Source: Gemmatimonadales bacterium
GTDB taxonomy: Bacteria > Gemmatimonadota > Gemmatimonadetes > Gemmatimonadales > GWC2-71-9
Assembly: GCA_019637315.1 (NCBI GenBank)
Contig: JAHBVU010000004.1
Coordinates: 186,001-250,000, forward strand
DNA length: 64,000 nucleotides
Reading direction: 5' to 3'
The position numbers were made by a program, and so were the translations under genes. Every line of letters begins with the position of its first letter. Position 1 is the first letter of the stretch. Below are positions 561 to 31,786 of the stretch, piece after piece. The notes below the pieces were generated by a model. It was not told the origin of the DNA. It saw only the letters and a program-made list of their open reading frames with translations, and made no database searches.

Positions 561-883
561 CGCCGAGCCCGATCGGGAATCGAGGTGAATCGAGCTATCC
601 CGCCGCTGCGCGCCAAGCCATCGAACCGAACTCGGCCGTCCCGATCCGTCCGCCCTTCGAGCGTTTCACCGGTGTCGAGTTCGATCCGGACATCCTGGTC
701 GGGAACAGGATCGCCCGCCTCATCCTTGAGGATCACGCCGAGCCAGGTATCGGGTGGATCGTCGGGGAGGACCGGGCCGGGCTCCGTTGCCGGGCGCGGT
801 CCGGTACGGCAGGGGGCGCACGCCGACCCGCCGCCAGGCGGAGCAAGTGCGTCGGCCTGCGCCTGCGAAATCTGAAGCGTCAT
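557..883 (-). CDS. Small protein with Ig/transthyretin-like carboxypeptidase-regulatory fold
   Basis: This 108-aa protein starts at ATG 883, which overlaps the stop of the DUF4123 gene as ATGA (880-883). Its own stop overlaps the next ATG in the same way. The N-terminal 45 residues are Pro/Gly-rich and hold a CAPC pair. Residues about 45-95 read as a beta-sandwich of the carboxypeptidase regulatory type (GVILKDEAGDPVPDQDVRIE, then TDRDGRVRFDGL). Small proteins with this fold occur in type VI secretion and phage-tail-like loci, often near VgrG or effector genes. That placement is known for the family, but the role here is inferred from the coupled DUF4123 neighbour. No signal peptide is visible. 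Confidence 0.6.
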   Translation of the reverse strand: MTLQISQAQADALAPPGGGSACAPCRTGPRPATEPGPVLPDDPPDTWLGVILKDEAGDPVPDQDVRIELDTGETLEGRTDRDGRVRFDGLARSGGIARFTSIPDRARR

Positions 884-1410
884 CGGAGTGCTCCGCCTAA
901 CGACACATGGCGGTCGCCGATTCGCTGCCAGAGCAGCTCACAGGAACGGTCGGGACGACCGATCGCAAACGCGTCGACCGGGCCGAAGAAGCCAGGGAGA
1001 TCGACCTCGGGCGCCGCGAGGTAACTCGACAGCACGCGCGGATCGTAGAATCGGAAGTACCAGGACTCGTTGGTCGGGCTCTCGATGATCAGGAAACGGC
1101 GGAAGTGACGGTAGAGCGCCTCGAAGCCTGCACCGGACAGCACCAAGGCGCCCCACGGCTCGTCCCACAGCACCTCGCGAATCCAGCCAAGGGTATCGGC
1201 ATCGACGCGGTACAGATATGGCGCGATGGCCCACAGCTCTTCTTCGGCGCGCCCCCGATAGAGCGACCGGGCGCTCCCGGGGTCGGTCTCTCGGCAACGG
1301 ATCGGAACCGCAGGCTGGTCGCACGCATCGACGAGCGCGTAGAGGCGGCCGGCTTGGGACCACCGGTCGACAACTGTCGGCGCAATCTCAGTCCGCTGTA
1401 GCGTGGTCAC
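880..1410 (-). CDS. DUF4123 domain protein (type VI secretion adaptor family)
   Basis: The protein is about 176 residues from GTG 1410; a TTG at 1446 would add 12. It shows the DUF4123 pattern: an early LYALVDACDQP motif, a central WGALVLSGAGFEALYRHFR segment, and a late WYFRFYDPRVL segment. DUF4123 proteins (Tap/TEC) are adaptors that load effectors onto VgrG in type VI secretion systems and are normally encoded between vgrG and the effector. Here it is the first gene of a leftward cassette in which every junction is an ATGA overlap. The rest of the cassette, where an effector would be expected, lies beyond the left edge. No VgrG is in view. Confidence 0.75.
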   Translation of the reverse strand: MTTLQRTEIAPTVVDRWSQAGRLYALVDACDQPAVPIRCRETDPGSARSLYRGRAEEELWAIAPYLYRVDADTLGWIREVLWDEPWGALVLSGAGFEALYRHFRRFLIIESPTNESWYFRFYDPRVLSSYLAAPEVDLPGFFGPVDAFAIGRPDRSCELLWQRIGDRHVSLGGALR

Positions 1411-1527
1411 CTTGAGAATATGCGTCGGCGGCGGGCAGGGCGGCAACGCCGCGGGGCTCGCCCGTTTCCGTTGCGATTCGGCTACCGGCTCGGTACCTTC
1501 CGCCCTATTGAGTATCTAGAGGTCACC

Positions 1528-1860
1528 ATGGCTGGGGACAAACTCGACCTGCTGCAAGGCACGCTGGATCTCATCGTGCTCAAGCTGCTGCAAGGCGGAC
1601 CAGCCAACGGCTGGCAGCTGACGCAGACGATTCAGCTCGTCTCGCGCGGAACGCTCGACGTCAACTACGGCTCGCTCTACCCCGCCCTCCGCCGACTCGA
1701 GGCCAAGGGCATGGTCAGCGCCGAGTGGGGGCCAAGCGAGAACAATCGCCGGGCGCGGTTCTATAAGTTGACGCCAGCCGGGCGGAAGCAGCTGGCCAAA
1801 GAACGCGCCGACTGGGAGCGATTCACCGGCGCACTCGGCCTGATCCTCGCGACCGAGTGA
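1528..1860 (+). CDS. PadR family transcriptional regulator
   Basis: This 110-aa winged-helix protein has the typical PadR opening (DLLQGTLDLIVLKLLQGGP) and the wing region with NYGSLYPALRRLEAKG and FYKLTPAGRKQL. I take ATG 1528 as the start, preceded by AGAGG 7 nt upstream; a longer frame opening at 1420 adds residues that are not PadR-like. In Gemmatimonadota and Acidobacteria such short PadR proteins usually sit next to ABC permease genes. None is adjacent here, because the next gene downstream is convergent and unrelated. The gene is transcribed divergently from the DUF4123 cassette across a 117-bp gap. Confidence 0.9.
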   Translation: MAGDKLDLLQGTLDLIVLKLLQGGPANGWQLTQTIQLVSRGTLDVNYGSLYPALRRLEAKGMVSAEWGPSENNRRARFYKLTPAGRKQLAKERADWERFTGALGLILATE

Positions 1861-1864
1861 TCGG

Positions 1865-2674
1865 CTACGCCACTCCAAACAGGGATGTCAGGTTCTCGAG
1901 ATCCTCGGGGTCGAAGAGGCGCCACCCCTGGGCGAGGAATCGAAGCAGTTCGTCCTCGGTCGGATAGCTGTGGTATCGACCCGCCGCCGGATCCTGCGGT
2001 TCCGCAGCAACTGTCTCACCCCGCTCCAGCCGTTCGACCGCGTCCGCGACCAGCCGCACGCCCAGCGGATAGAGCGACAGCACGTGCCAGAGGAGCGATC
2101 GGCTCCGGTCGACCGGTCGCCGCGCGGTTGCAATGATTCCGCCCTGATCGATTTCCGGACTGTCGATCCAGTGGAGGGTGCAGCCAACCTCGGTGTCGCC
2201 GGCCAGGAGCGCACGAAAGGTGGCCAGCACACCTCGGTAGGCAGGCAAGAGCCCCGAATGCAGGTTGAGCACGCCACGTGGCGGAATCGCAATCGCCTCG
2301 TGCCCCAGAATGTGGCCGAAGCGGATCGAGATGAAGAGATCCGCGTTTGCCCCGCGCAGGGCGTCGAGCCCCGCGGGTGATCGGGCGGACGAGAGAGTCC
2401 AAACCGGAACCCCGAACCGGCGTTCGAAGCTGTCGAAACCTGTGAGGGCACCCTCGGGCAGCGACCGGTGCTCCGCCAGGGGGAATACCAGCCGGTTGAA
2501 GAGGGTCTGCTCGACGTAGCCGAGCTGACCGAGGGCCCTGGCCCGGCCGCCCGCAGGCCCGCCAACGCGCTCCGACTGAAAGACCCCGACCAGTCGCTGG
2601 CCCAGCAGGGGGCACAGCAGGTTGAGTGCGAGGCAGCTCTGGACATCCTGGTTGAGCAGCAGGGCGATGCGCAT
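1865..2674 (-). CDS. Formyltransferase-family protein (methionyl-tRNA formyltransferase-like fold)
   Basis: This 269-aa protein has the formyl_transferase hallmark segment: LNLHSGLLPAYRG, then a region ending HWIDSPEIDQGGII. That gives the N-H-D arrangement of the family (Asn and His of LNLHSG, Asp of SPEIDQG). The catalytic domain is therefore intact, but the protein is shorter than Fmt (about 310 aa) and lacks a recognisable C-terminal tRNA-binding domain. It is more like the stand-alone formyltransferases that modify sugars or small metabolites. I chose ATG 2674 (MRIALLLNQDVQ) because a beta-strand start suits the Rossmann fold; the frame extends upstream to 2725. It is convergent with padR, 4 bp apart. 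The substrate cannot be read from the sequence. Confidence 0.75.
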   Translation of the reverse strand: MRIALLLNQDVQSCLALNLLCPLLGQRLVGVFQSERVGGPAGGRARALGQLGYVEQTLFNRLVFPLAEHRSLPEGALTGFDSFERRFGVPVWTLSSARSPAGLDALRGANADLFISIRFGHILGHEAIAIPPRGVLNLHSGLLPAYRGVLATFRALLAGDTEVGCTLHWIDSPEIDQGGIIATARRPVDRSRSLLWHVLSLYPLGVRLVADAVERLERGETVAAEPQDPAAGRYHSYPTEDELLRFLAQGWRLFDPEDLENLTSLFGVA

Positions 2675-2825
2675 TCCGCAAGATACCGGCACCTTCCCGT
2701 GGTCGAAACGCAGACATGACAGCACCTGTCGGCGGCAGAGTACAGCAGACGAACTCCCTCCAGTGCCCTGGATCTGGGCCTTGCCGCTACTTTTCCAGAT
2801 CCATCTCGCACGCCGGAGCCACTCG

Positions 2826-5800
2826 ATGCCTCACCACCGCCCCCGCCGGGGATACCTCGGCGCGTCACTGATCGCGCTGCTGGCCGTCGCGACCGCAACA
2901 TCGCTTGACGCGCAGCCCAAACCCGACAGCGCCTGGTCGATCGAGAAGATTCATGGGCCAAGTCTCCCCTTTGCCGTGACCCTCGATGAGGGAACCTGGA
3001 TGTCACTCGATCTGTCGCCCGACGGGCGGACCATCGTCTTCGATCTCCTGGGCGACCTGTACACCATGCCGATCACGGGCGGAACAGCCACCCGGATCAC
3101 TCAGGGCCCGGCCTTCGATCAGCAGCCGCGCTTTTCGCCTGACGGCAAGCGGATCGTCTTCGTCTCCGATCGCTCCGGCTCGTCCAATCTCTGGTTCGTC
3201 GAGCCCGATGGCTCGAATCCGAGGGCCCTGACCACCGACCGCGCCTGGGGCTTCTCGTCACCGGTGTTCACGCCGGACGGCGACTACGTCATCACTCGTC
3301 GCGCCTCGCTCAACGATCAGGGTTCGGGCATCACCCTTTTCATGTACCACGTCGACGGCGGGGGTACCGGGGTCGAGCTCTTCAAGGGAGAGAACGCGCC
3401 GGCAGGTCCCGCGCTCTCGCGTGACGGGCGCTGGCTCTACTTCTCGACCCGACAGCCCTTCGATCGCGGCGGCGCCGTCATCAAGCGGTTCGATCGTCAC
3501 ACCGGCCGGATCCTGCCGCTCACCTCGGGATACGGTGGCGCCGTCCGCCCGGCGGTCAGCCCCGACGGCCGGACCCTCGTCTTCGGGCGACGCATCGATG
3601 CGCAGCAGGTGCTGGTATTGCGCGACCTCGAAACCGGCGCCGAGCGGGTGGTTTATCGCGGCCTCGACCGCGACGAGCAGGAAACCACCGGATCTGCCGA
3701 CTTGCTGCCCGGCTACGCCTTCACACCCGACGGGTCCGAGGTCATCGTCTCGGCCCGCGGCAAGTTCCGTCGCATCACGCTCGCCACCGGCGCAGAGCAG
3801 CTCATTCCCTTCTCGGCACGCTTCGAGCAGACCCTGACCGAGCGAGTCATGGTCGCCTCGCGGCTCGACGACGGCCCGGTGCCGATCAAGCTGCTTCGCT
3901 GGCATCATGCCTCACCCGACGGGCGGCGGATTGCCTTCAGCGCAGCCGGACAGAACTACCTCTACGACGTGGCCAGCCGGCAAACCCGCCAGGTCGGCAG
4001 CGGGTCGGGCCACCAGTTCTCTCCCGCCATCTCGCCGGACGGCCGCTGGATTGCCTGGGTCGACTGGCGCGACTCGACCGGTGGGCACGTCTACAAAGCC
4101 CCGATCGACGGCGGCACCCCGGTTCGCCTCACCACCCGGGCGGCGCACTACGTCAACCCTGCCTGGTCCGCAGATGGGCGGAAACTCGTGGTGCTGCAAG
4201 GCTCGGGCGGTGAGTTCCGCGGCGACCGTGGCACCGAAAGCCTCTACTACGAAGTCCGCTGGCTCGATGCGACCACCGCGGGCCCGGCGCATTTCGTCAC
4301 CGCGTTTCCGAAGCGCGGCATCCGGCGGCAGATCGTCCGCCCCAAGTTCGACCCGACCGGCACCCGGATCTACTTCTCCGAGAGCGAAGGCGGCTCGAAC
4401 CTGATACCGCGGTCGACCGACCTGATCTCGGTCGCGCTCGACGGCACCGACCGGCGGATTCACCTCCGCTTCCTGTTTGCGGATGATCTGATACCCTCGC
4501 CCGACGGCAAGTGGGTTGCCTTTACCGAGCAACACAACGTCTACGTCGTGCCGCTGCCGGTGGCGGGGTCCACACCGGTCGAGGTCCGACTCGACGGAGG
4601 CGTCCTCCCGGTGCGCCGGCTGAGCCAGGAGGGTGGGGCCTGGGTCGACTGGGCCGCCGACGGCAACAGCATCACCTGGGGCTGGGGGCCGAACTTCTAT
4701 CGTCTCCCGCTCGAGCGTGCCCGGCTGACCAAGGGTACCGCGGCCGCCGATACCGTTCACATCGCGCTGACCGCGCCGAGGCTTCGCCCCACCGGCCAGG
4801 TCGCGCTGCGCAACGCGCGAATCATCACCATGGGCGCCGCCGGCACCATCGACCGCGGTGACATCGTGGTCGAGGGCGGACGGATCCGAGCCATCGGCGC
4901 CTCGGGATCCGTGCCGATTCCGAGCGGCGCCACCGTGCTCGACATCAGCGGCAAGACGGTCATGCCGGGTATGATCGACCTCCACGCCCACTACTACGAC
5001 GAGGACACCGAGCTGCTGCCCGAGCGCGACTGGGCTCTTGCCGCGCAACTGGCGTATGGCGTCACCACCATCCGTGACGTCTCCGTGCGCAGCCAGACGG
5101 TGTTCACCCTGGCCGAAATGGTGGAAACCGGGCGGATGATCGGCCCGCGCATCTTCAGCACCGGCGACATCATCTGGGGCTGGAACGCGCCCTTCGCGAG
5201 CCCGGTGGCCAGCCTGGACGACGCCCGCCGCCAGGTGCGCCGCCTCAAGGCACTGGGTGCCACGCTGGTCAAGCAGTACATGCAGCAGCGGCGCGATCAG
5301 CGTCAGTGGGTGGTGCAGGCCGCACGGGAGGAGGGCCTGATCGTGACGCCCGAAGGCGGGGGCCAGACCTTCTTCGACCTCACCATGGTGATGGACGGGC
5401 ACAGCGGGATCGAGCACGCCATTCCCACGGCGCCTCTCTATCGCGACGTGATTTCACTGTTTGCTGCCGCGAAGACCGACTACGTCCCCACCCTGATCGT
5501 GGGCTACGGCGGACCGACCGCGGAGACCTATTTCCACCAGAAGTACGACGTCCATGACGACGCCAAGCTGCGCCGCTTCACGCCCCACCTCTACCTCGAC
5601 GAAAAGGCCCGACGCCGGGCGCTGCTGCCCGAAGAGGACTATCACTTCATCGACGTGGCCAAGGCCGCGGCCGCCATCCTCAAGGCCGGCGGCAACGTCG
5701 GGCTCGGTGCGCACGGCAACCGCCAGGGGCTCGGCGCGCACTGGGAGCTCTGGGGCTTGGCACTGGGCGGGCTGACGCCGCTCGAGGCGCTGCGCACCGC

Positions 5801-7861: not shown

Positions 7862-8656
7862 CTACTGGACCGTGGGAATCACGCCGCCCGGCGTACCAAA
7901 GTGGGGAATCACCCCGGCCTCTCTGAGGTCCATTGCGGGCGCGGGTGTGATGAATCGAGCGTCGGCGGTAGCGTAGTAGAGGCAACCCAGCTCGTCCGGA
8001 GGCCGGCTTCGCACGAACTGATCCGCCGCCTCGACCGCTCCCAGCCAGACCTCCTTCGCGCGCACCAGGTCAAACGGCTGAGTCAGTTGCAACCGGTCGA
8101 TATCCTCCGGTCGATACCGTCCACGACGTTTCAGCAGCTCGAGCAAAGAGAGCGGCGTAAAGCCGGGATCTTTGCCGCAGGCCGCCCAGACCAGCGCACC
8201 GAGCGAGAGCACCCGCTCGTGGAGGTACAGCATGTCGACGTAGTCGCGCGGCTCGTTGCGCCCGGCCAGTGCCAACACCTTGTTGACCGCGAGGTCGACG
8301 TCGTGCAGCAGCAAGCCTCCGAGACTGTCGACGACCAGCGGCATGAAACGCCAGGCTGTGTCGTGCGCCCAGTCGATTTTGGTCGACACCCCATCGTGCT
8401 GAACCGTCGCGCGAATCAGCCCAGGCTGACTGATCTCGACCTCGACTTCGAATCCGGCCGCCACCAGCACTCCTCGGTCCGCAGCAAACGTCGCGGCAAC
8501 CCGGGCTTCCGAATCATGAAAGAAGTCGAGGTCGTCGCTGTACCGGGTCGAGTTCGGCGAGAAATGGATCGCGGCGCCGCCAGCCAGGTAGCGCTCGGAC
8601 TGACGCCGGCCCGCCAGGGTCGACAGGATCCGGCGCTGATGCTCGGTCAGGGGCAT
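7862..8656 (-). CDS. Nucleotidyltransferase of the AbiEii/AbiGii toxin family
   Basis: This 264-aa protein starts at ATG 8656 (MPLTEHQRRIL). The nucleotidyltransferase signature is present: YLAGGAAIHF, a spacer, then TRYSDDLDFFHD, which is the GG...R-x-S-x-DLDF pattern of AbiEii-type toxins. Two conserved acidic residues are intact, and FEVEVEISQPG with KIDWAHD provides the following strand. AbiEii proteins are the toxins of type IV toxin-antitoxin and abortive-infection modules. The gene overlaps the small upstream gene by 10 bp (8647-8656), so the two are co-translated. The cognate partner is not AbiEi-like in sequence, so the pair is a variant module. Confidence 0.82.
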   Translation of the reverse strand: MPLTEHQRRILSTLAGRRQSERYLAGGAAIHFSPNSTRYSDDLDFFHDSEARVAATFAADRGVLVAAGFEVEVEISQPGLIRATVQHDGVSTKIDWAHDTAWRFMPLVVDSLGGLLLHDVDLAVNKVLALAGRNEPRDYVDMLYLHERVLSLGALVWAACGKDPGFTPLSLLELLKRRGRYRPEDIDRLQLTQPFDLVRAKEVWLGAVEAADQFVRSRPPDELGCLYYATADARFITPAPAMDLREAGVIPHFGTPGGVIPTVQ

Positions 8657-16828: not shown

Positions 16829-19800
16829 TCACGGGGTAACCGGACCAGTGGCGCCGACCACGCTCCAGTCGATATCCGTCTTGACACCAGTCCAGGTCTC
16901 GATGGGACCGACCAGCATCTGGGTTCCGACAGTTTGACCGTCGATCATGAAGTGCCAAGCGTCACCGGCTTTCAGCTGTGCCGGAACACGAGCCAGCGGC
17001 ACACCGTCGATTGCGACGCCACACGTCGCATCCGGGAAGGCCTGGATACGGAAGCGGTACCACTCGCCGCTCGTCTGCACGGTACTCGTCGGAGCGGCGA
17101 GCCCCGTCACAGTGAAGATACGCATCTGCTCGACACCCTCGCTGACAGGTATCAAGTAGCTGCAGATTCCGACACCGTGGGGAGCGCGAACCGCGAACTC
17201 CACATCTTTGATCAGCTTCAAATTGAGGCGTTGCCACTTCGGCCTGTCAATTGGTGTCGAGACAAGAGCCTCAACCCCGAAGCTCTGCCCAGCAATAGTA
17301 GTGCGACTGAGCACCCCGCTCGAGAACGTGTTGTCGCCCCCGTTGAGCAAGGCGGGCAGCCCGCCCGGACCGGTCGTGATCGATGGCAGCGGATCACCGT
17401 ACGTCTGCCAACGCTCATCGAGTGGCTCGGTCCACGTCTCGGTCGACTGCGTTTCGACAGCGTTCGCCACGATGGGTATCTCGATTGAGGCCGTCCTCCA
17501 GCCTCCTGCCGAAACGCCTACGCGGACTGTGCCTTCCTTGCGAGCGAACAGTTGACCGGTCGTGGGATCTATCCGTGCGAGCGTCGAATCGTCCACGGTC
17601 CATCGGAGGACTTGCAGAGAAACCTCGATAGGCCGGCCAACCGTATCGTATCCAACCGCACGAAGCCTGTGATCCAACCCCGCGATGGCGGCACCTACTC
17701 CTGGGTCGATACGCATGGCCGCGAGATAGCGATGCCTCCCGTTCGGTACGAACCATCCTGTCGTGATTTCGGGCCCTCTCTGCTGGAGCGTTAGGTGTCG
17801 TTCGTCTTGACGTTCGGTGTCGACGATCTGCCAGGTCGAGGTCGGGGGTCCAATGGCCGTCGCAAAGCTGGTCCCTGGTGCCAGGCGATCGACCCGTGTT
17901 TCGATCTGTCTTACAGTCGAAAGCGAATCACGGAGCGGAAACCAGCTCGTCACGAGTGAGCTCCCGCCGGCCCCGTTTCTCGCGAACAGGATTCGGTCGC
18001 TACTCAACCAACCGTGATTCCGAACGTGGGCGACCGTGGCGCCTGGCGCGCATCGCTCAGTCAGGCCGTCGAACGTCACAGCACAGATCTGGTGCAATCC
18101 TGTTTCTGCCGCGATGCGATCGAACGCGATGTGGATCCCGTCAGGAGACCACCTGGGAGCCGAATCGTAGTGGCGCCCTCGGGTCAGCTGTCTGACGGCA
18201 CCCGTCTCTGGATCGAGAACAGCAAGATCACTGTCCTCGTCGCCAGGCGGCGTCCATCGCGCGGTGGCAAACACCAGCAAGCGGCCGTCAGGCGACCAGC
18301 TGGGCGAGATGTCATCTCCTGGAGTGAACGTAAGGCGGCGAATCCGCCTGCCCTCCAGCATCATCAGGTCGATCCCGCCGGAATCTCCAACCACCTCGTC
18401 GAACACCAGCCGCCGGTCAGGGTTTAGAGCCAGGCTATAGTAGGGTAGGTGCCCAGTGGGGAGCCGGCCAAGTTCCTGACGTTCCCGAGGTACGATTGTA
18501 TCCGTGCCGGCCCAGCGTGCAGAGCTGATCGGAACCCCATAGACCCGCACGCCGGTCGCGGGGTCACCCCCGCTTACGAGCAGAATAGCCTCCGGCTCTG
18601 GCGCCGGGTCCACGACGAGCGAACCGACGACAGCAGTGCCGATGGCCACCGCCCCCGCGAGAAGCGCGGCGCGCGAGCGTCTCGCGTAAGTCAGCCGCCG
18701 GACCCAGCCCAGCGAGCGCACCAGCGCCGCAGACGCTGCTGTGGTTGCGTCAGGCCCCAACGCAGAGCGGGCCAGATCGCGAATCGGGGTCTCGCTTCCC
18801 TGCCGTCGAGTCAGGGTGACCTGGGCCCAGAATAGCGCACGCAGTCGATCCGGTTGCTCGGCCTCGCGAAGATGCCGCGCCGAGCGTCGGTACGCGGTGC
18901 GGTCCTTCTCGAGCTGGGAGAACAGCCATTCACCCAGCACACGATGAGCCTTGCGGCGCTCCAGGTCGGGCGCACTTCGGAGCGCGGCTGCCGCGACCTC
19001 GTCGTGTGCCGGATGGAGCAGCTGGCCCATCCTTGCGACGAGGCCATCCCTCTCCAGCTGGAGCACGATCTCGTGGGCATCAGCGTCGGCCGAGGTGAGG
19101 ACCTCGAGTGGCACGGGTGCCTGCGCCGTGCTGATCAGCAACAACAGTTTTTGGGCGGCGGTCGAGAGCCCCTCGATCCGAAGCCGAAGCGGATCGTCGT
19201 CGCCGAAGTCCTTCAGTGCGGTGGCGGGGTTGGCCCAGGTCCAGCCGTTCTCATCGATCTGCAACCGGCCCCGTTGCAAGGCCAGGTGCAGCTGCTCCAA
19301 CACGAGCAACGGCGAGCCGTGCGATTTGGCGTGCAGCACTTCAGCCAGCGCCGTCACGTCATAGGTCCTGACATCTGCTCCCAGACTCGCCAGCATGTCG
19401 AGCACCGCACCCGCCGTGAGGGGAGCAAGCTCGATGAACTCGGTTGAGGGCGTCACGGGCACCAGGCGCGACGTGGGGCGTGCCGTCGTCACGATCAGCA
19501 CCCGCTCGCTCTTGAGACGGTTAATCAGACCGTTGATGATCTGCAGTGACTGGTCGTCGCCCCAATGCAGATCGTCGAGCAGCAGAGCAAGCGGCGCTTC
19601 GCCTGCCACGCACGAGACGAGCTCCGTCATCGACCGAATCAAGGTGGCCGTGGATCCGATCCGTGAGCGACCGTCCCCACGACCCTGATGGTAGGCCGAA
19701 AGCGAGGGAGCCAGCGCACTCAGCTCCGCGAGTGTGCCAGGCGCGATGGCGCGCCAGCCGGGGAGCGTCAGGGCTTCGACGGCGTCGCTGAGGAAGGCGT

Positions 19801-20824
19801 GATCGACTTCGCGCTCTCCTGGAATCGCGCCTATCAGGGCAATGGCGGCCCGGTTCGGACGCAGCCGGTTGGCCAGCTCACGAAGCAGCCGAGTCTTGCC
19901 GAGTCCGGCCGGGGCGGTGAGATGGATGTGGACAGCCCGATTGCGCTCGCAGCGGCGCCAGGCCTCCATGAGCATGGCAAACTCGGCTTCCCGTCCGGCC
20001 AGCTCGGTAGCCAGTGGGCCGCCTGGCGGCTCGGAGGCCGAAGGCGAGGCAACAGCCTCCACTTGGCGGACCTTCGCGATGAGCCGTTCGGTCGCGGGCT
20101 CGATTGCTTCGCCATCGGCGGCGAGGTGGGCAAGGAGACGGTCGGTTTCGAGGAACGCTCGGGCACGGTTACCCCCGGCCACCAGGGCTTCGAGCAGCAG
20201 GCACCAAGCGGCTTGAGACTCCGGGCAGCAATCCCGGGCCTTGGCCGCGAGGCGGGCTGCCGTCTTGTTGTCCGGCTGGTCGAGCGCCTGCCGGACGGCC
20301 TCCGTCGCGGAGCGGAGGAAGGCCTCTTTGAGCTGCGCCCGCTGCAGGTCTGCCCATTGCTCGAACCTGGCCGCTCCCTGTGCTGCGAAGGCCGGGAAGA
20401 ACTTTCCTGTATACAAGTCGACGGCGTCTGCGAAGCGTCGTTCCTGGGTTGCTGCCAGAAAGAGATCCCGATCGGAGACGACGTCGAGAACCAATGCCAG
20501 GACCCCGTCGCGCCCTCGCGACACGATGGGATCCTGTCCGAGGTCGCCGCGCAGGCGATACAGCACCTGGCGCAGCGCCCCTCGGGCCTTGGGGGGGGTA
20601 CCGTAGTCCCAGAAGTAGTCAATCAGCTCATCGCGGCTAGCTTCGCGATTTGGGAGACAATGCAGATACGTGATAAGGGCTAAGCCCCTGCCAGGGGGCA
20701 GGAGGTCGACAGGTCCCTGTCCTGATATTGGACGGTAGGCGAGGAGGCGTGCCGAACCTAGCGTAACGAGCTTTAACGTCCCCTCGACCGTGACGGGGGG
20801 GCTGTCAGGGGCATCCGAAGCCAT
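16829..20824 (-). CDS. Membrane-spanning SARP/BTAD regulator with ATPase and exported sensor region
   Basis: The product is 1331 residues. From the N-terminus there is an OmpR-type winged helix (about 16-110; DELIDYFWDYGTPPKARGAL), a BTAD helical domain (about 115-255), and an AAA/ORC-like ATPase with Walker A APAGLGKT near 304-311 and Walker B LLLDDLHWGDD near 415. A helical region to about 700 precedes one membrane helix (AALLAGAVAIGTAVVGSLVV, about 715-740). The outside part has PD40/TolB blades (SPSWSPDGRLLVFATARW, APRWSPDGIHIAFDRI), a BIG2-like Ig domain near 1085, and a C-terminal beta-sandwich. SARP proteins activate transcription; here a cytoplasmic regulator appears coupled to an extracytoplasmic sensor. 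The 179-bp region upstream carries no gene. Confidence 0.82.
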   Translation of the reverse strand: MASDAPDSPPVTVEGTLKLVTLGSARLLAYRPISGQGPVDLLPPGRGLALITYLHCLPNREASRDELIDYFWDYGTPPKARGALRQVLYRLRGDLGQDPIVSRGRDGVLALVLDVVSDRDLFLAATQERRFADAVDLYTGKFFPAFAAQGAARFEQWADLQRAQLKEAFLRSATEAVRQALDQPDNKTAARLAAKARDCCPESQAAWCLLLEALVAGGNRARAFLETDRLLAHLAADGEAIEPATERLIAKVRQVEAVASPSASEPPGGPLATELAGREAEFAMLMEAWRRCERNRAVHIHLTAPAGLGKTRLLRELANRLRPNRAAIALIGAIPGEREVDHAFLSDAVEALTLPGWRAIAPGTLAELSALAPSLSAYHQGRGDGRSRIGSTATLIRSMTELVSCVAGEAPLALLLDDLHWGDDQSLQIINGLINRLKSERVLIVTTARPTSRLVPVTPSTEFIELAPLTAGAVLDMLASLGADVRTYDVTALAEVLHAKSHGSPLLVLEQLHLALQRGRLQIDENGWTWANPATALKDFGDDDPLRLRIEGLSTAAQKLLLLISTAQAPVPLEVLTSADADAHEIVLQLERDGLVARMGQLLHPAHDEVAAAALRSAPDLERRKAHRVLGEWLFSQLEKDRTAYRRSARHLREAEQPDRLRALFWAQVTLTRRQGSETPIRDLARSALGPDATTAASAALVRSLGWVRRLTYARRSRAALLAGAVAIGTAVVGSLVVDPAPEPEAILLVSGGDPATGVRVYGVPISSARWAGTDTIVPRERQELGRLPTGHLPYYSLALNPDRRLVFDEVVGDSGGIDLMMLEGRRIRRLTFTPGDDISPSWSPDGRLLVFATARWTPPGDEDSDLAVLDPETGAVRQLTRGRHYDSAPRWSPDGIHIAFDRIAAETGLHQICAVTFDGLTERCAPGATVAHVRNHGWLSSDRILFARNGAGGSSLVTSWFPLRDSLSTVRQIETRVDRLAPGTSFATAIGPPTSTWQIVDTERQDERHLTLQQRGPEITTGWFVPNGRHRYLAAMRIDPGVGAAIAGLDHRLRAVGYDTVGRPIEVSLQVLRWTVDDSTLARIDPTTGQLFARKEGTVRVGVSAGGWRTASIEIPIVANAVETQSTETWTEPLDERWQTYGDPLPSITTGPGGLPALLNGGDNTFSSGVLSRTTIAGQSFGVEALVSTPIDRPKWQRLNLKLIKDVEFAVRAPHGVGICSYLIPVSEGVEQMRIFTVTGLAAPTSTVQTSGEWYRFRIQAFPDATCGVAIDGVPLARVPAQLKAGDAWHFMIDGQTVGTQMLVGPIETWTGVKTDIDWSVVGATGPVTP

Positions 20825-21021
20825 CGTGTGACGCTCGTGTGATGGTGGTCATTGCATCCTTCTCGGAGCCATAGGGGTGCCCCACGGAACGGTGCCTGCC
20901 CCACCCGTCACACAACGGCCCAGACCTTCACTCGGTTCGCACCGCTGAAGGTACGGATCGGTGGCGGAGGGGGCAAGCACCTCTGCTACCCCGCTCGTCG
21001 CCTGTGTTCGCGAGGATCATC

Positions 21022-21555
21022 ATGACGTTAGTCGTTCGCCCGGCCTCAATGGCGTTGGGTATGCTCATCCTGGCTACCACGGCCGTCCATGGACAGGCTG
21101 GCACGCGGAGCGAGGAAGTACTGACCAATGCCTCAGTTGCCCAGCTGGTTCAGTCGAAGCTGGCCCGCAAGCTGATCGTTGCCAAGATCCGCGATTCTCG
21201 GAACAGTTTCGACGTCAGCGCGGTTGGCCTGGTAGCTCTTCGAGCACAGGATGTGCCTGAAGAGATTCTCGGGGTCATGCTTGAGAGCGCAGCCGAGGCA
21301 GCAGCCCGGGACGCCCTGTCTAACCAAGGCGTCGTGCAGATGCTCGACGCGAAGCTCTCTCGGGACCTAGTCATTACCAAGATTCGAGGCGCAACGCCAA
21401 ACTTTGACCTGACCACGAGCGGCCTGGTCAGCCTGCAGCAACGCAAGGTGCCGCGCCAAGTAATTGAGGCAATGATGCTGGCGGGGAACAGCTCCAGCAG
21501 TTCCCCGCCAGTTCGTCGGGTCATTAGACGCCGAGCCGCCACCACCACCTGCTGA
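21022..21555 (+). CDS. Exported protein with two tandem about 50-residue helical repeats (probable 5' part of a frameshifted gene)
   Basis: The protein is 177 aa from ATG 21022, with GAGGA 6 nt upstream; a GTG at 21004 is not needed. A signal peptide ends near AVHGQ. Two homologous units follow: LTNASVAQLVQSKLARKLI and VAKIRDSRNSFDVS...ALRAQDVPEEILGVML, then LSNQGVVQMLDAKLSRDLV and ITKIRGATPNFDLT...SLQQRKVPRQVIEAMM. The tail SSSSSPPVRRVIRRRAATTTC is unlike the rest and is probably out of frame. The next gene starts 38 bp later in another frame without a ribosome site and looks like the missing C-terminal domain. The repeat family is one I do not recognise by name. Confidence 0.65.
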   Translation: MTLVVRPASMALGMLILATTAVHGQAGTRSEEVLTNASVAQLVQSKLARKLIVAKIRDSRNSFDVSAVGLVALRAQDVPEEILGVMLESAAEAAARDALSNQGVVQMLDAKLSRDLVITKIRGATPNFDLTTSGLVSLQQRKVPRQVIEAMMLAGNSSSSSPPVRRVIRRRAATTTC

Positions 21556-21593
21556 ACAAGGACGCACGCGCTACAACCCTTCAGCGCCTGCGC

Positions 21594-22178
21594 GTGTTCG
21601 AGCTCCCTCGGGCACTCCCGACGAGCAGCCTGCCCACGGAGCCCGGTATCTACGTGCGAGGCCGGAGTACATCCGTATCCGAACTCGTTCGACTCGAGCC
21701 GACGGCATATACGGCGGGTCGGACCGGCAACATCCTCGGTGCTGCCGTCACAGGCGGGATATCCAAAGCCAAGCTCAAGGCAGTCGTTCGTGGATCCCGT
21801 GCAGCGGTTCAGGTGCCAGAGGCCACCGAATTCTACTTCGTGTTTGACAAGACCGATCAGGGCATGGGGCCGTCGTTTGCATGGCTATCGCAGATCACCA
21901 GTCCGAACGAGTTCTCATTGATTCGGTTCGACGTGAAGACCAACTCGCGCGAGGTAGTTGTAGGTGCAGTTGGCGCGTACTCGAGGCAGTCGGGCACCGA
22001 GGACCAAGCGATCATCCAGTTCACGCTGACGCGGCTGGCACCTGGTAAGTACCGCGTGGTGCCGGATGGATCGATCCCGATTGGGCAGTATGCGTTCATC
22101 ACGGAAAGCGGCCCGTCGTATGGGGTCGCGGGCAACCGTGTGTTCGACTTCGGTGTGACTGGTCGGTCGACGCGCTAA
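21594..22178 (+). CDS. Beta-rich exported-type domain, probable 3' part of the preceding gene
   Basis: The open frame is 194 codons, opening with GTG 21594, which has no Shine-Dalgarno sequence. The recognisable domain begins at LPTEPGIYVRG and runs through LVRLEPTAYTAGRTGNIL, FYFVFDKTDQGMG, LIRFDVKTNSREVVVGAVG and LTRLAPGKYRVVPDG to the end. It has no signal peptide of its own, although it looks like an extracytoplasmic beta domain. The upstream gene supplies a signal peptide and stops abruptly in a Pro/Ser linker. A net -1 (or +2) shift between about 21480 and 21620 would fuse them. Function unknown. Confidence 0.6.
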   Translation: MFELPRALPTSSLPTEPGIYVRGRSTSVSELVRLEPTAYTAGRTGNILGAAVTGGISKAKLKAVVRGSRAAVQVPEATEFYFVFDKTDQGMGPSFAWLSQITSPNEFSLIRFDVKTNSREVVVGAVGAYSRQSGTEDQAIIQFTLTRLAPGKYRVVPDGSIPIGQYAFITESGPSYGVAGNRVFDFGVTGRSTR

Positions 22179-24988: not shown

Positions 24989-25153
24989 GGCAATGGCGTG
25001 GGCAGGACATCGACGAGGACGCTTAGTGGCCCTTCATGTGCAGCCAACGACCGGATTGCTCGGGGTCCGCTGCGAAAAGCAGGGCTTGACCTGGTGAGAG
25101 CGTTCTTTCCTTCGAATGGAGCTCACCCTGAAAGTGGACGGAGCGCCGCTCGG

Positions 25154-28100
25154 ATGAGTCTAGCTATGTCGGGCTGCCTCCGAAGCTGGAGCCCTACCTG
25201 CGTCGCTTCGGGTTCATGGATGGCAGTGCTTTGGCTGTTCTCCGTAGCCTGTGGCTCTGGGGACGCTCTCCAGCCACCCACTCCAGCCCCCCCGCCGTCT
25301 GCACCAGTAGCGACCGTGGTCGTTAGTCCGGATTCACTGAGACTGGAAGTGGGGAGTTCGGCCCCTCTCCAAGCCGTCGTTCGGGATACTTCAGGTAACC
25401 CACTCAACGGCCGAGCCGTAACCTGGCGTAGCGACGATCCGGCCGTCGTGTCCGTTTCGATGTCTGGCGTGGTCACCGCCGTGTCGGGCGGGGGACCCGT
25501 CCAGGTTACGGCGACTTCAGAGTCACAGTTCGGCGTTGCAAGGGTTTGGGTACACTACCCCCAGTCCGGTACCGTCGGCCAGAAGGGCGGGGCACTGAGT
25601 ACCGCAAGCGGTGCGGGGGTCATTGTCCTGTCGCCTGGAGCTGTTGCGGGCGAAGTCAAGGTTCAACTTCGCGACTCGCAGCCGGAAACGCCTCGCTATG
25701 CGCCGCTGTCGGCAAGCGGTGTCCATCTGAGACTTCCCCTGACTGGCCAAGGCGCCGACTACCGAGCTGGCACGGCCAAGCTGACCTTCGCGTTGTCCAG
25801 AATGCCACAGCCAGGGGCGGTGGTCTATGTTCGCGCCAAGTTTAAGGGCGTCGCTGACAAGTTCTGGGCCAAGGCGAATGTGGTGTCCGACAGCCGGGCA
25901 GAAATCGCGATTCCGACGGAGCAACTCACCGACTTCACGACGTTGCTTGGACTCGACACGCTAGATGTGACGTTCAACGTCGAAGAGTTCGTGCCGTCTG
26001 AGGCGATGAGCAGTCTCCAGTCTGCTCGGACTGGCAGCATGCCCAGTGCCACGTCAGAACCCGGCTGCCCGCAACTTCCGGCGGGTCTGACCCTATCGAA
26101 CTACTACGTCGCGTGCACGGGCGGTGTACTGCGACTGATCGAGCCTGGGAAGAGTGGCCCCAGCAGCAAGATCGGGATCGTACTCGTCCATGGATGGCTC
26201 CCGAGTATTGGGAACGGCGAGGACTACCTCAAGGAGCAGGGCCTTCTCTGCGAGAATCCCGCCTCCGTTAGTTCTACGCCCGCAACGCTCATCTCCGTCG
26301 TGTGCTCAGCCCCACCCGCGCCGGATCCCAATGCTGCGCTGCCCGTCACCAACTATTTCAAGCACCTGTTGACCGCCCTTCGGGCTGACCAGGCCTCGGC
26401 TTTACGCGGAGCGCCCATCTACGGATTTGACTACCAGTCCTATCGAGACCATTTCACGTCCGGTGCCCAGCTTATGGATGCCCTGAGAGACACAATGGAT
26501 CGTAACGGTCTTCAGGGTTTTGTCATAGTTGCGCACAGCATGGGCGGCCTCATTGCTCGGGAGGCTGCTCGGCGGCTCGAGGATACGTCGAAGGCTGCTC
26601 AGGTGATTCTCGGCGTAATCACTCTTGGCACTCCTCATCTCGGTACTCCTTTGGTCGGTATGCGGATCGCGAACTTCTTCTCTGGGGTTGCGACGCCTGC
26701 TAGGACGAGCTTGATAACGGGAGCGGCCCGAGATGAGCGCGCGACACTGATTGCCTACGGAGGTCACAAAACGAGCCAGGGGCAGTATCTATTCACTGGG
26801 ACTGTCCTGTGCCTCTCGTCCGGCCTCTGTCGCAACGATGGCGTCGTCCCTCTCGGTTCTGCTCTTCCTTCAACATTTGTAGGATCAGGACGGGTTGAAC
26901 TTCTGACGCCGTATGAACCCTGCGATCACACTGAGTTGAAGGAAGCGCGATGCCCGTCGATCGCCAACGATGATCTCTACGTTACGCTGAGGCTCCTGAT
27001 TGGGCATCTGCTCAGGCGCGCGGGGGCAGAGAACCTAAACTTTCGCGTGCCCCCCGCGAACACGGTGGCCCGTTCAAGGCTCGGCTCGGTCGAGATCCGT
27101 GTGCTTGATGCGATCGGCACCCCCATCGAGACCGGCGCCACGTTCGAGGTCAACCTCCGCCTTGACGCCAACCCCACCTCAGCTACGCTTGGCGGGACGA
27201 CCACGGCCACAGCCCACAACGGCGTTGCGGTTTTCGATGACCTGACGATCGACAAGCCTGGGACCGGTTATACGCTCGCCGCCAGTCTAGCAGGCATTGC
27301 AGACCTCGTGGTCACTTCCCGCGCCTTCAACGTGACCGCGGCCCCCGAAGGCCAGGGACAGTTCATGGTGCCGATCTCGGCGGGCAATCACCATACCTGT
27401 GCAATTACAATCTCGGGGCACAGCTACTGTTGGGGCTGGGGGTCAAGTGGGCGTCTCGGCAACGGTTCAACAATGAACCGACTGACCCCAACCCTGGTCT
27501 CTGGCAACTACGCCTTTACCATGCTTTCCACGATGGCGGGATCGTTCGCCGCTACCTGTGCAATTACAACAGCAGGCACGGCGCACTGCTGGGGTGGTTC
27601 AAATTCATATCAACTCGGGAATGGCAGCCTCGCGGAAAGCCTGGTGCCCACTCCTGTTGCAGGGGGATTCACTTTTTCCCAGGTGTCATCCGGATTTCAC
27701 CACGCCTGTGGCATCACGAACAATGGAGAAGCGTACTGCTGGGGAGGCAATGCATTCGGCGAGATTGGTAGCGGTTCGCTTTCCAGTGCTCGGACTCCCG
27801 TGCGTGTGATCAGTGATGTCCCGTTTTCTTCAATCTCTGCTGGAGCATACCACACCTGCGGAATCTCGACTTCTGGCGTGGGGTATTGCTGGGGCGAAGG
27901 CTTTCTGCTCGGCACCGGAACGACAACACGCTCTTACGTACCGGTTCCAATCGCAGGTGCACACATATTCGCGACGATATCAGCCGCCTACAACCACTCC
28001 TGCGCCCTCACGACGGAGGGGGTATCCCTATGTTGGGGCTCAAGAGGAAACTACGGGTATCTCGGAGACAACAGCCCCGATCTTTCCGCTCTTATGCCCG

Positions 28101-28498
28101 TTCCGACGGCCGGGGGACATCGATGGGTAGCCATATCGGCGCGACAATGGCACACATGCGGAATCAACACAAGCGGGGCTGCTTACTGCTGGGGCGCCGG
28201 GGGCGCCGGTAGACTTGGCAACGGATCATCGATTACGCGAAGGGTTCCTACTCCTGTCGCAGGTGATTTGGTTTTTACGTCGATCTCGGCGGGAATAGAT
28301 CACACCTGCGGAATCACGGATATCGGAGATGCCTACTGCTGGGGAGGGGGAAGTTTGGGTGCCCTTGGCTCGGGATCTACCGTTTCAAGCGACGTACCTA
28401 TACAAGTGACCGGTGGCCTGCGCTTCCCGGCTGCGTTGCCCGCCTTGCGGTTCAGCGCCACTGCAACTGGGCCACAAGATCGCCGTCCTGTGAGGTGA
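25154..28498 (+). CDS. Lipoprotein fusing a BIG2 Ig domain, a lipase-like hydrolase and RCC1-type repeats
   Basis: The product is 1114 residues from ATG 25154 (the frame is open to 24998). The lipobox is LFSVAC, followed by a Pro-rich spacer. A BIG2-like Ig domain (VTWRSDDPAVVSVSMSGVVT) and a ZU5-like segment follow. An alpha/beta hydrolase of the PGAP1/lipase type has IVLVHGWLPS and the nucleophile motif VAHSMGGLIAREA near residue 462; LGTPHLGTPL is typical. Another Ig-like region precedes seven C-terminal repeats, each containing HTCGI...G.AYCWG and a LGNGS-like turn, as in RCC1 propellers. It is probably surface-anchored. GC content and codon choice drift lower toward the 3' end. The 141 bp beyond it, up to hsdR, appear empty. 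Confidence 0.85.
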   Translation: MSLAMSGCLRSWSPTCVASGSWMAVLWLFSVACGSGDALQPPTPAPPPSAPVATVVVSPDSLRLEVGSSAPLQAVVRDTSGNPLNGRAVTWRSDDPAVVSVSMSGVVTAVSGGGPVQVTATSESQFGVARVWVHYPQSGTVGQKGGALSTASGAGVIVLSPGAVAGEVKVQLRDSQPETPRYAPLSASGVHLRLPLTGQGADYRAGTAKLTFALSRMPQPGAVVYVRAKFKGVADKFWAKANVVSDSRAEIAIPTEQLTDFTTLLGLDTLDVTFNVEEFVPSEAMSSLQSARTGSMPSATSEPGCPQLPAGLTLSNYYVACTGGVLRLIEPGKSGPSSKIGIVLVHGWLPSIGNGEDYLKEQGLLCENPASVSSTPATLISVVCSAPPAPDPNAALPVTNYFKHLLTALRADQASALRGAPIYGFDYQSYRDHFTSGAQLMDALRDTMDRNGLQGFVIVAHSMGGLIAREAARRLEDTSKAAQVILGVITLGTPHLGTPLVGMRIANFFSGVATPARTSLITGAARDERATLIAYGGHKTSQGQYLFTGTVLCLSSGLCRNDGVVPLGSALPSTFVGSGRVELLTPYEPCDHTELKEARCPSIANDDLYVTLRLLIGHLLRRAGAENLNFRVPPANTVARSRLGSVEIRVLDAIGTPIETGATFEVNLRLDANPTSATLGGTTTATAHNGVAVFDDLTIDKPGTGYTLAASLAGIADLVVTSRAFNVTAAPEGQGQFMVPISAGNHHTCAITISGHSYCWGWGSSGRLGNGSTMNRLTPTLVSGNYAFTMLSTMAGSFAATCAITTAGTAHCWGGSNSYQLGNGSLAESLVPTPVAGGFTFSQVSSGFHHACGITNNGEAYCWGGNAFGEIGSGSLSSARTPVRVISDVPFSSISAGAYHTCGISTSGVGYCWGEGFLLGTGTTTRSYVPVPIAGAHIFATISAAYNHSCALTTEGVSLCWGSRGNYGYLGDNSPDLSALMPVPTAGGHRWVAISARQWHTCGINTSGAAYCWGAGGAGRLGNGSSITRRVPTPVAGDLVFTSISAGIDHTCGITDIGDAYCWGGGSLGALGSGSTVSSDVPIQVTGGLRFPAALPALRFSATATGPQDRRPVR

Positions 28499-28639: not shown

Positions 28640-31782
<3,143 letters not shown>

Positions 31783-31786
<4 letters not shown>

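Follow-up and report, generated by a model that had tools for sequence, protein, structure and literature searches.

STAND switches such as MalT, AfsR, the NLRs and Apaf-1 are familiar as sensors within the cytoplasm, and SARPs are known to act as soluble activators. In MalT the DNA-binding domain, of the LuxR type, is C-terminal and the sensor is cytoplasmic; the membrane-bound regulators ToxR and CadC are not known to have an ATPase switch between the DNA-binding domain and the membrane. Large SARPs are well known (PMC10972967). AfsR of Streptomyces coelicolor is described as a SARP-NOD-arm-TPR protein without a membrane part; its SARP module is held inhibited by the NOD and TPR parts until ATP binding lifts the inhibition, it binds two 11-base-pair (bp) repeats, and it is targeted by a Ser/Thr kinase (PMC10936776). 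The DNA sites of SARPs are direct repeats of heptamers, spaced with an 11-bp period (PMC5930380, PMC10936776), and a survey has catalogued 50,302 transmembrane transcription regulators (TTRs; PMC10269533). Here we describe a gene in a stretch of 64,000 nucleotides from contig JAHBVU010000004.1 of a Gemmatimonadales bacterium (the whole stretch is referred to as the window; the host genome assembly comprises 3.9 Mb in 36 contigs). Its product is probably a transmembrane transcription regulator of the one-component kind, with the build of a STAND protein that spans the membrane.

The gene is a single uninterrupted open reading frame (ORF) of 1331 codons on the minus strand, with coding-type codon GC along its entire length. 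A first, sequence-only reading had proposed the domain order winged helix, BTAD, ATPase, transmembrane (TM) helix, propeller, immunoglobulin-like (Ig) domain and beta-sandwich, and this order was upheld by the ORF, Pfam, profile and hydropathy analyses. The features are as follows.

16829-20824, minus strand: whole gene, 1331-amino-acid predicted membrane-spanning SARP/STAND regulator (ORF and full-length homologues).
20489-20776, minus strand: residues 17-112, OmpR/SARP-type winged helix; recognition helix 77-95, R85 invariant (AfsR/EmbR structural match, AfsR profile match, conserved ARxxLRQ recognition helix).
20051-20488, minus strand: residues 113-258, bacterial transcriptional activation domain, BTAD (Pfam above cut-off at 128-253, 6e-6; AfsR/EmbR structural match).
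19475-20011, minus strand: residues 272-450, STAND/AAA_16 nucleotide-binding domain; P-loop GLGKT 307-311, Walker B D418, R449 (Pfam AAA_16 above cut-off at 274-445, 7e-18; invariant motifs; PH0952, MalT and NLR structural matches).
18971-19474, minus strand: residues 451-618, STAND helical and winged-helix subdomains; GxP 503-505, His607-Asp608 (invariant motifs; fold match to MalT, NRC1 and Apaf-1).
18686-18970, minus strand: residues 619-713, STAND arm-like helical region (MalT and PH0952 structural alignments reach residue 710-711).
18611-18682, minus strand: residues 715-738, single TM helix, predicted N-in/C-out (hydropathy, charge bias, predicted helix, position kept in homologues).
17741-18601, minus strand: residues 742-1028, TolB/PD40-like beta-propeller, predicted outside; Cys914, Cys925 (Pfam PD40 above cut-off from 829, 1.3e-14; TolB fold; cysteine pattern).
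17459-17740, minus strand: residues 1029-1122, BIG2/Lig-type Ig-like domain (Big_2 at 1.5e-7 in the homologue at locus L082; Lig/Ig profile matches).
16877-17458, minus strand: residues 1123-1316, C-terminal L-type-lectin/ConA-like beta-sandwich; Cys1221, Cys1268 (Emp46p/ERGIC-53 fold; cysteine pattern).

In the window protein itself Trans_reg_C (0.024) and Big_2 (0.11) stayed below the Pfam cut-off; in the L082 homologue both were significant, Trans_reg_C with 5e-6, and among relatives Trans_reg_C was as good as 7e-7. A family profile built from ten full-length homologues and run against the PDB matched AfsR at 38-249 (2.7e-6), TolB at 798-982 (3.5e-26) and the Ig domains of Leptospira Lig proteins at about 1027-1115, Lig and other Ig matches together covering about 1027-1122. 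The protein is thus a SARP by its N-terminal OmpR-type winged helix followed by a BTAD, and it has the central STAND/NOD ATPase of large SARPs in the same order as AfsR. Pfam detected no TPR in the window protein after the ATPase, where a cytoplasmic C-terminal TPR sensor belongs in a large SARP; unlike AfsR, it continues after the arm with a TM helix and a propeller/Ig/lectin-fold ectodomain. The departure from the classical cytoplasmic SARP-NOD-TPR layout (PMC10972967) that had been noticed from the sequence is supported, and most likely the usual TPR sensor has been replaced by the TM helix and ectodomain.

Two AlphaFold models, each built from alignments of the window protein and proteins of the other loci, refined this picture. 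In the model of residues 1-745 (27 sequences, mean pLDDT 87), residues 13-258 resemble AfsR and EmbR with Z of about 15 (AfsR Z 15.1, 24% identity). Structure comparison, with Foldseek also run, matched residues 271-711 to the STAND protein PH0952 (6mfv, Z 22.7) and MalT (8bob, Z 22.1), and further to plant NB-ARC proteins, Apaf-1 and NRC1. The stretch from 450 to 711, first described simply as a helical region, is indeed present and could be specified as the STAND helical, winged-helix and arm part, as in MalT and PH0952. G307, G309 and K310 of the P-loop, R449, G503 and P505 of the GxP motif, and H607 and D608 of the winged helix are invariant across 27 homologues, D418 being conserved in at least 90%; by position, His607-Asp608 would correspond to the MHD-like motif of NLRs. 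The order nucleotide-binding domain, helical domain, winged helix, together with GxP and the conserved winged-helix His, identifies a STAND protein. MalT has the same fold including the arm, and the P-loop, GxP and invariant HD are found in the window protein too, but the latter has its DNA-binding domain at the N-terminus and its predicted sensor outside.

The model of residues 738-1331 (18 sequences, pLDDT 78) contains a propeller like TolB (Z 22.4, root mean square deviation 3.1 over 246 residues) and a C-terminal sandwich like Emp46p (Z 17.0, deviation 2.9, 183 residues) and ERGIC-53 (Z 16.8). The final beta-sandwich of the sequence-only reading (about 1123-1316) is thereby refined to an L-type-lectin/ConA-like fold, a predicted membership that concerns the fold alone, so that sugar binding should not be assumed. 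A profile search with the ectodomain returned, beyond the family, only propeller-type matches in the sampled genomes, and the Ig-plus-sandwich sensor is therefore apparently not common to other receptors in these genomes.

A membrane helix had been expected at about residues 715-740, and one strong hydrophobic peak was found at residues 720-738 (Kyte-Doolittle 2.27; the second-best peak of the protein reaches 1.53), AlphaFold showing residues 715-737 as helical. The flanks carry 6 positive and no negative charges on the N side and no positive and 4 negative charges on the C side, and both the position and the positive-inside flank are kept in 24/24 aligned homologues. Soluble-type SARP-ATPases from the same phylum have no comparable peak. 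The number of cysteines is even (0, 4 or 6) in all 17 ectodomains compared, as expected for disulfides in an oxidising compartment outside the cytoplasm, whereas cytoplasmic counts are odd or even. Cysteines 914, 925, 1221 and 1268 are each kept in 13-16 of the 17. Cys1221 and Cys1268 are jointly absent in three divergent homologues (L107, L101 and L110), and this co-loss lends partial support to predicted disulfides; the pairing is imperfect, as L079 lacks Cys1268 alone and L107 and L101 retain Cys925. Membrane anchoring with the sensor half outside, as originally proposed, is thus supported by sequence features, with a predicted N-in/C-out topology. By this prediction the protein also combines a DNA-binding domain with at least one TM region, as TTRs do, and shares with ToxR, CadC and TcpP the single TM helix, the extracytoplasmic part and the one-component design.

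The fusion is a conserved family and not a chance event. Full-length homologues with 30-36% identity occur in other genera and families, and the close homologues are nearly all from Gemmatimonadota among the matches listed. A search of 200 genomes sampled evenly across the phylum (E 1e-60 or better) gave matches in 29 genomes; 22 of these hold 27 near-full-length copies, confirming that the architecture recurs. A homologue with its second half encoded separately, which would have spoken against the sequence-only reading, was not encountered. Two that appeared split contain single-base interruptions, namely a single in-frame TAG, the frame being the same on either side (L093), and a frameshift (L090), and C-terminal fragments in three genomes (G048, G040 and G001) end at contig edges. 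In a tree of the SARP-ATPase core, 45 membrane-type rows group together (support 81), including one complete member without a TM helix, and 37 SARP-ATPases without TM fall apart from this clade. Two more small clades have a TM helix, one of them with TPRs after it, and shorter cousins of about 1030 amino acids possess the TM helix and lack the Ig domain and sandwich. Together with SARPs that have a TM helix and no ATPase, these forms suggest that membrane anchoring has arisen, or has been lost, more than once, as it seems. Examples with TPRs are L072:464-4294 and L074:1680-5543, SARP-ATPases with a TM helix followed by TPRs, the TPR sensor being apparently outside; in L075:1522-4302 and L076:515-3013 the TM helix directly follows the BTAD, and LpoB/TolB_N-like and TPR domains come after it in L075.

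Two further members of the family deserve mention. On L112, a contig labelled Myxococcaceae and probably misbinned, lies a sequence that branches beside L111 (end branch 0.03) and nearly duplicates a Gemmatimonadota member. At L040/L107 (G038:C134:7-411 and 870-4841) the end of a second family copy lies just upstream of a full copy, which suggests tandem paralogues.

The upstream regions of the family genes show 11-bp repeats, the spacing of the direct-repeat operators of AfsR (PMC10936776). In 22 of 44 TM-type upstream regions an 8-mer recurred with period 11 and at least 7/8 identity, compared with 5.4 +/- 2.5 in dinucleotide shuffles and with 2-12 regions for each of the other periods from 8 to 33. 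TGACG stood out as a common half-site: in 0.97 Mb of loci, 32 TGACG pairs had period 11, and every other period accounted for 0-8. Counted by gene in the 150 bases upstream, TGACG-N6-TGACG precedes 10/44 membrane-SARP genes versus 8/557 non-SARP genes (Fisher p 4.5e-8, an optimistic value as the genes are related), and two of these eight share an intergenic region with a family gene. It precedes 0/40 other SARP-ATPase genes, and no other period from 8 to 23 appears in more than 1/44 family genes. Pairs at L030 +28, L092 +41, L086 +65 and L087 +71 were discounted because they lie within coding sequence for SDAxLTL-like peptides. The recognition helix differs accordingly between the groups, reading ARhaLRQ in the membrane clade and ARHSLnE in other SARP-ATPases. 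As the spacing is that of SARP operators, these patterns suggest that the family genes are autoregulated through the repeats. Across the start codon of the window gene lies an exact 8-bp repeat, TCACACGAGCGTCACACGA, again with period 11:

20823-20844, plus strand: candidate operator, 8-bp direct repeat TCACACGA-N3-TCACACGA (gene strand), 11-bp period, overlapping the ATG (putative function, supported indirectly by the family-wide 11-bp excess).

On the plus strand it reads TGTGACG-CTCG-TGTGATG, and its position would suit self-repression or regulation of the divergent neighbour at 21004. Neither a sigma-70-like promoter nor a terminator was found near the start of the window gene. Searches of the host genome gave 6 matches to GTGAYGN5GTGAYG (reversed control 0), five besides the window site lying within long ORFs; 12 TGACG pairs (5 in the control), located in long ORFs; and 6 TGTGAYG pairs with one mismatch, one of them intergenic and upstream of pstS. 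This last TGTGA repeat (L202:1501-1518, 11-bp period) lies just upstream of pstS and downstream of a histidine-kinase end and a porin-like gene. TGACG 11-bp repeats also occur upstream of genes at soluble-type SARP-ATPase loci (L118:9160-9256, L123:2199-2248 and 7873-7927); these genes may be targets of the soluble-type regulators.

We propose that the SARP module, winged helix plus BTAD, would bind pairs of 11-bp direct repeats, probably including those of its own promoter region, and activate transcription. Because in AfsR the NOD and TPR parts restrain the SARP module until ATP binds, the central STAND ATPase would by analogy be the switch, resting with ADP and switched on when ATP-bound and oligomerised, and the ectodomain would take the place of the TPR sensor. 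After the arm, at the point where a cytoplasmic sensor is attached in MalT and AfsR, the chain would cross the membrane once, and the TolB-like propeller, Ig spacer and lectin-fold sandwich would act as extracytoplasmic sensor. An outside ligand might cluster or reorient the ectodomains, which would favour ATP-dependent oligomerisation at the inner face and so the pairing of SARP domains on the operator; of the routes through a single TM helix, such clustering is the simplest. Ligand binding, oligomerisation, autoregulation and activation as the direction of control are all presumed here, as is the direct relay from ligand to DNA-binding part suggested by the sequence-only reading. The chances are about even that a membrane-spanning, NLR-like STAND receptor is the transcription factor itself, passing an outside signal through nucleotide-dependent oligomerisation to SARP assembly on operators without a kinase or second messenger. 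Kinase input, as in AfsR, may nevertheless reach the window protein.

Several observations weigh against this proposal. We found no direct precedent for a single TM helix signalling to a STAND arm. The TM peak is weak (1.21-1.42) in a few homologues (L081, L095 and L032), and no neighbouring gene is common to at least 3 of 19 loci. The exact TGACG pair occurs in a minority of family genes only, the window site is a TGACG/TGATG variant over the start codon, which is odd for an activator site, and the pattern searches of the host genome revealed no convincing further target, nearly all other matches lying in long ORFs.

The modest hydropathy of those homologues might be explained by a hydrophobic stretch that is not a membrane helix; the large SARP would then lie entirely in the cytoplasm and sense internally with its propeller/Ig/lectin half. 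We consider this very unlikely, as TM position and inside charges are retained throughout the aligned homologues, ectodomain cysteines are always even in number, the propeller is nearest to periplasmic TolB and the Ig domain to surface Lig proteins, and the soluble-type SARP-ATPases lack any such peak. The chief alternative, regulated proteolysis, would give the same anatomy: the tethered protein would be off until an outside signal caused cleavage near the TM helix and freed a soluble SARP-ATPase, which would look like the soluble SARP-ATPases of the phylum. Several membrane-bound regulators are controlled partly by proteolysis according to the TTR survey (PMC10269533). This is nevertheless unlikely here, since the lack of a conserved neighbour at the 19 loci means that there is no conserved protease partner, and the fully kept STAND motifs suggest that the ATPase itself is the switch.

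For the operator alone, a different regulator has to be considered. 11-bp repeats are also used by OmpR/PhoB-type proteins, AfsR and PhoP of Streptomyces have common sites (PMC10972967), and the only other clearly intergenic match in the host genome is the one upstream of pstS, so that the repeats might serve such a protein, for example as a Pho box. This remains rather doubtful: TGACG pairs were present in 0/30 pstS upstream regions of relatives, which leaves the Pho-box reading unsupported, and the repeats are enriched at membrane-SARP genes and absent at other SARP-ATPase genes, paralleling the differing recognition helix.

Membrane-bound regulators and STAND SARPs are each known, and we found no description of their combination in the main texts searched. 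BTAD, SARP and PD40 do not occur by name in the main text of the TTR survey (PMC10269533), and the main texts on large SARPs make no mention of a membrane-bound SARP (PMC10972967, PMC10936776, PMC5930380). The family joins a STAND switch to a predicted extracytoplasmic sensor in one polypeptide and is widespread in a poorly studied phylum. If our reading is true, it would link outside signals to promoters by a path additional to those of two-component systems and ToxR-type regulators, a path in which the ATPase step could set a threshold, and would offer a system where an external ligand could drive STAND activation. The conserved repeat provides the first candidate DNA target.

In the window, the regulator shares its intergenic region with two small divergent ORFs (21004-22178, plus strand) of 183 and 194 amino acids without a Pfam match, the first of which begins like a signal peptide and contains a unit of about 45 amino acids twice (VAQLVQSKLARKLIVAKIRDS...FDVSAVGLVALRAQDVPEEIL). 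Further along, a type I restriction enzyme R subunit, HsdR-like, is encoded at 28640-31786 (minus strand), and at 24998-28498 (plus strand) lies a gene for a 1166-amino-acid protein with an unusual combination of a Big_2 Ig domain, a PGAP1/alpha-beta hydrolase-like domain and RCC1 repeats.

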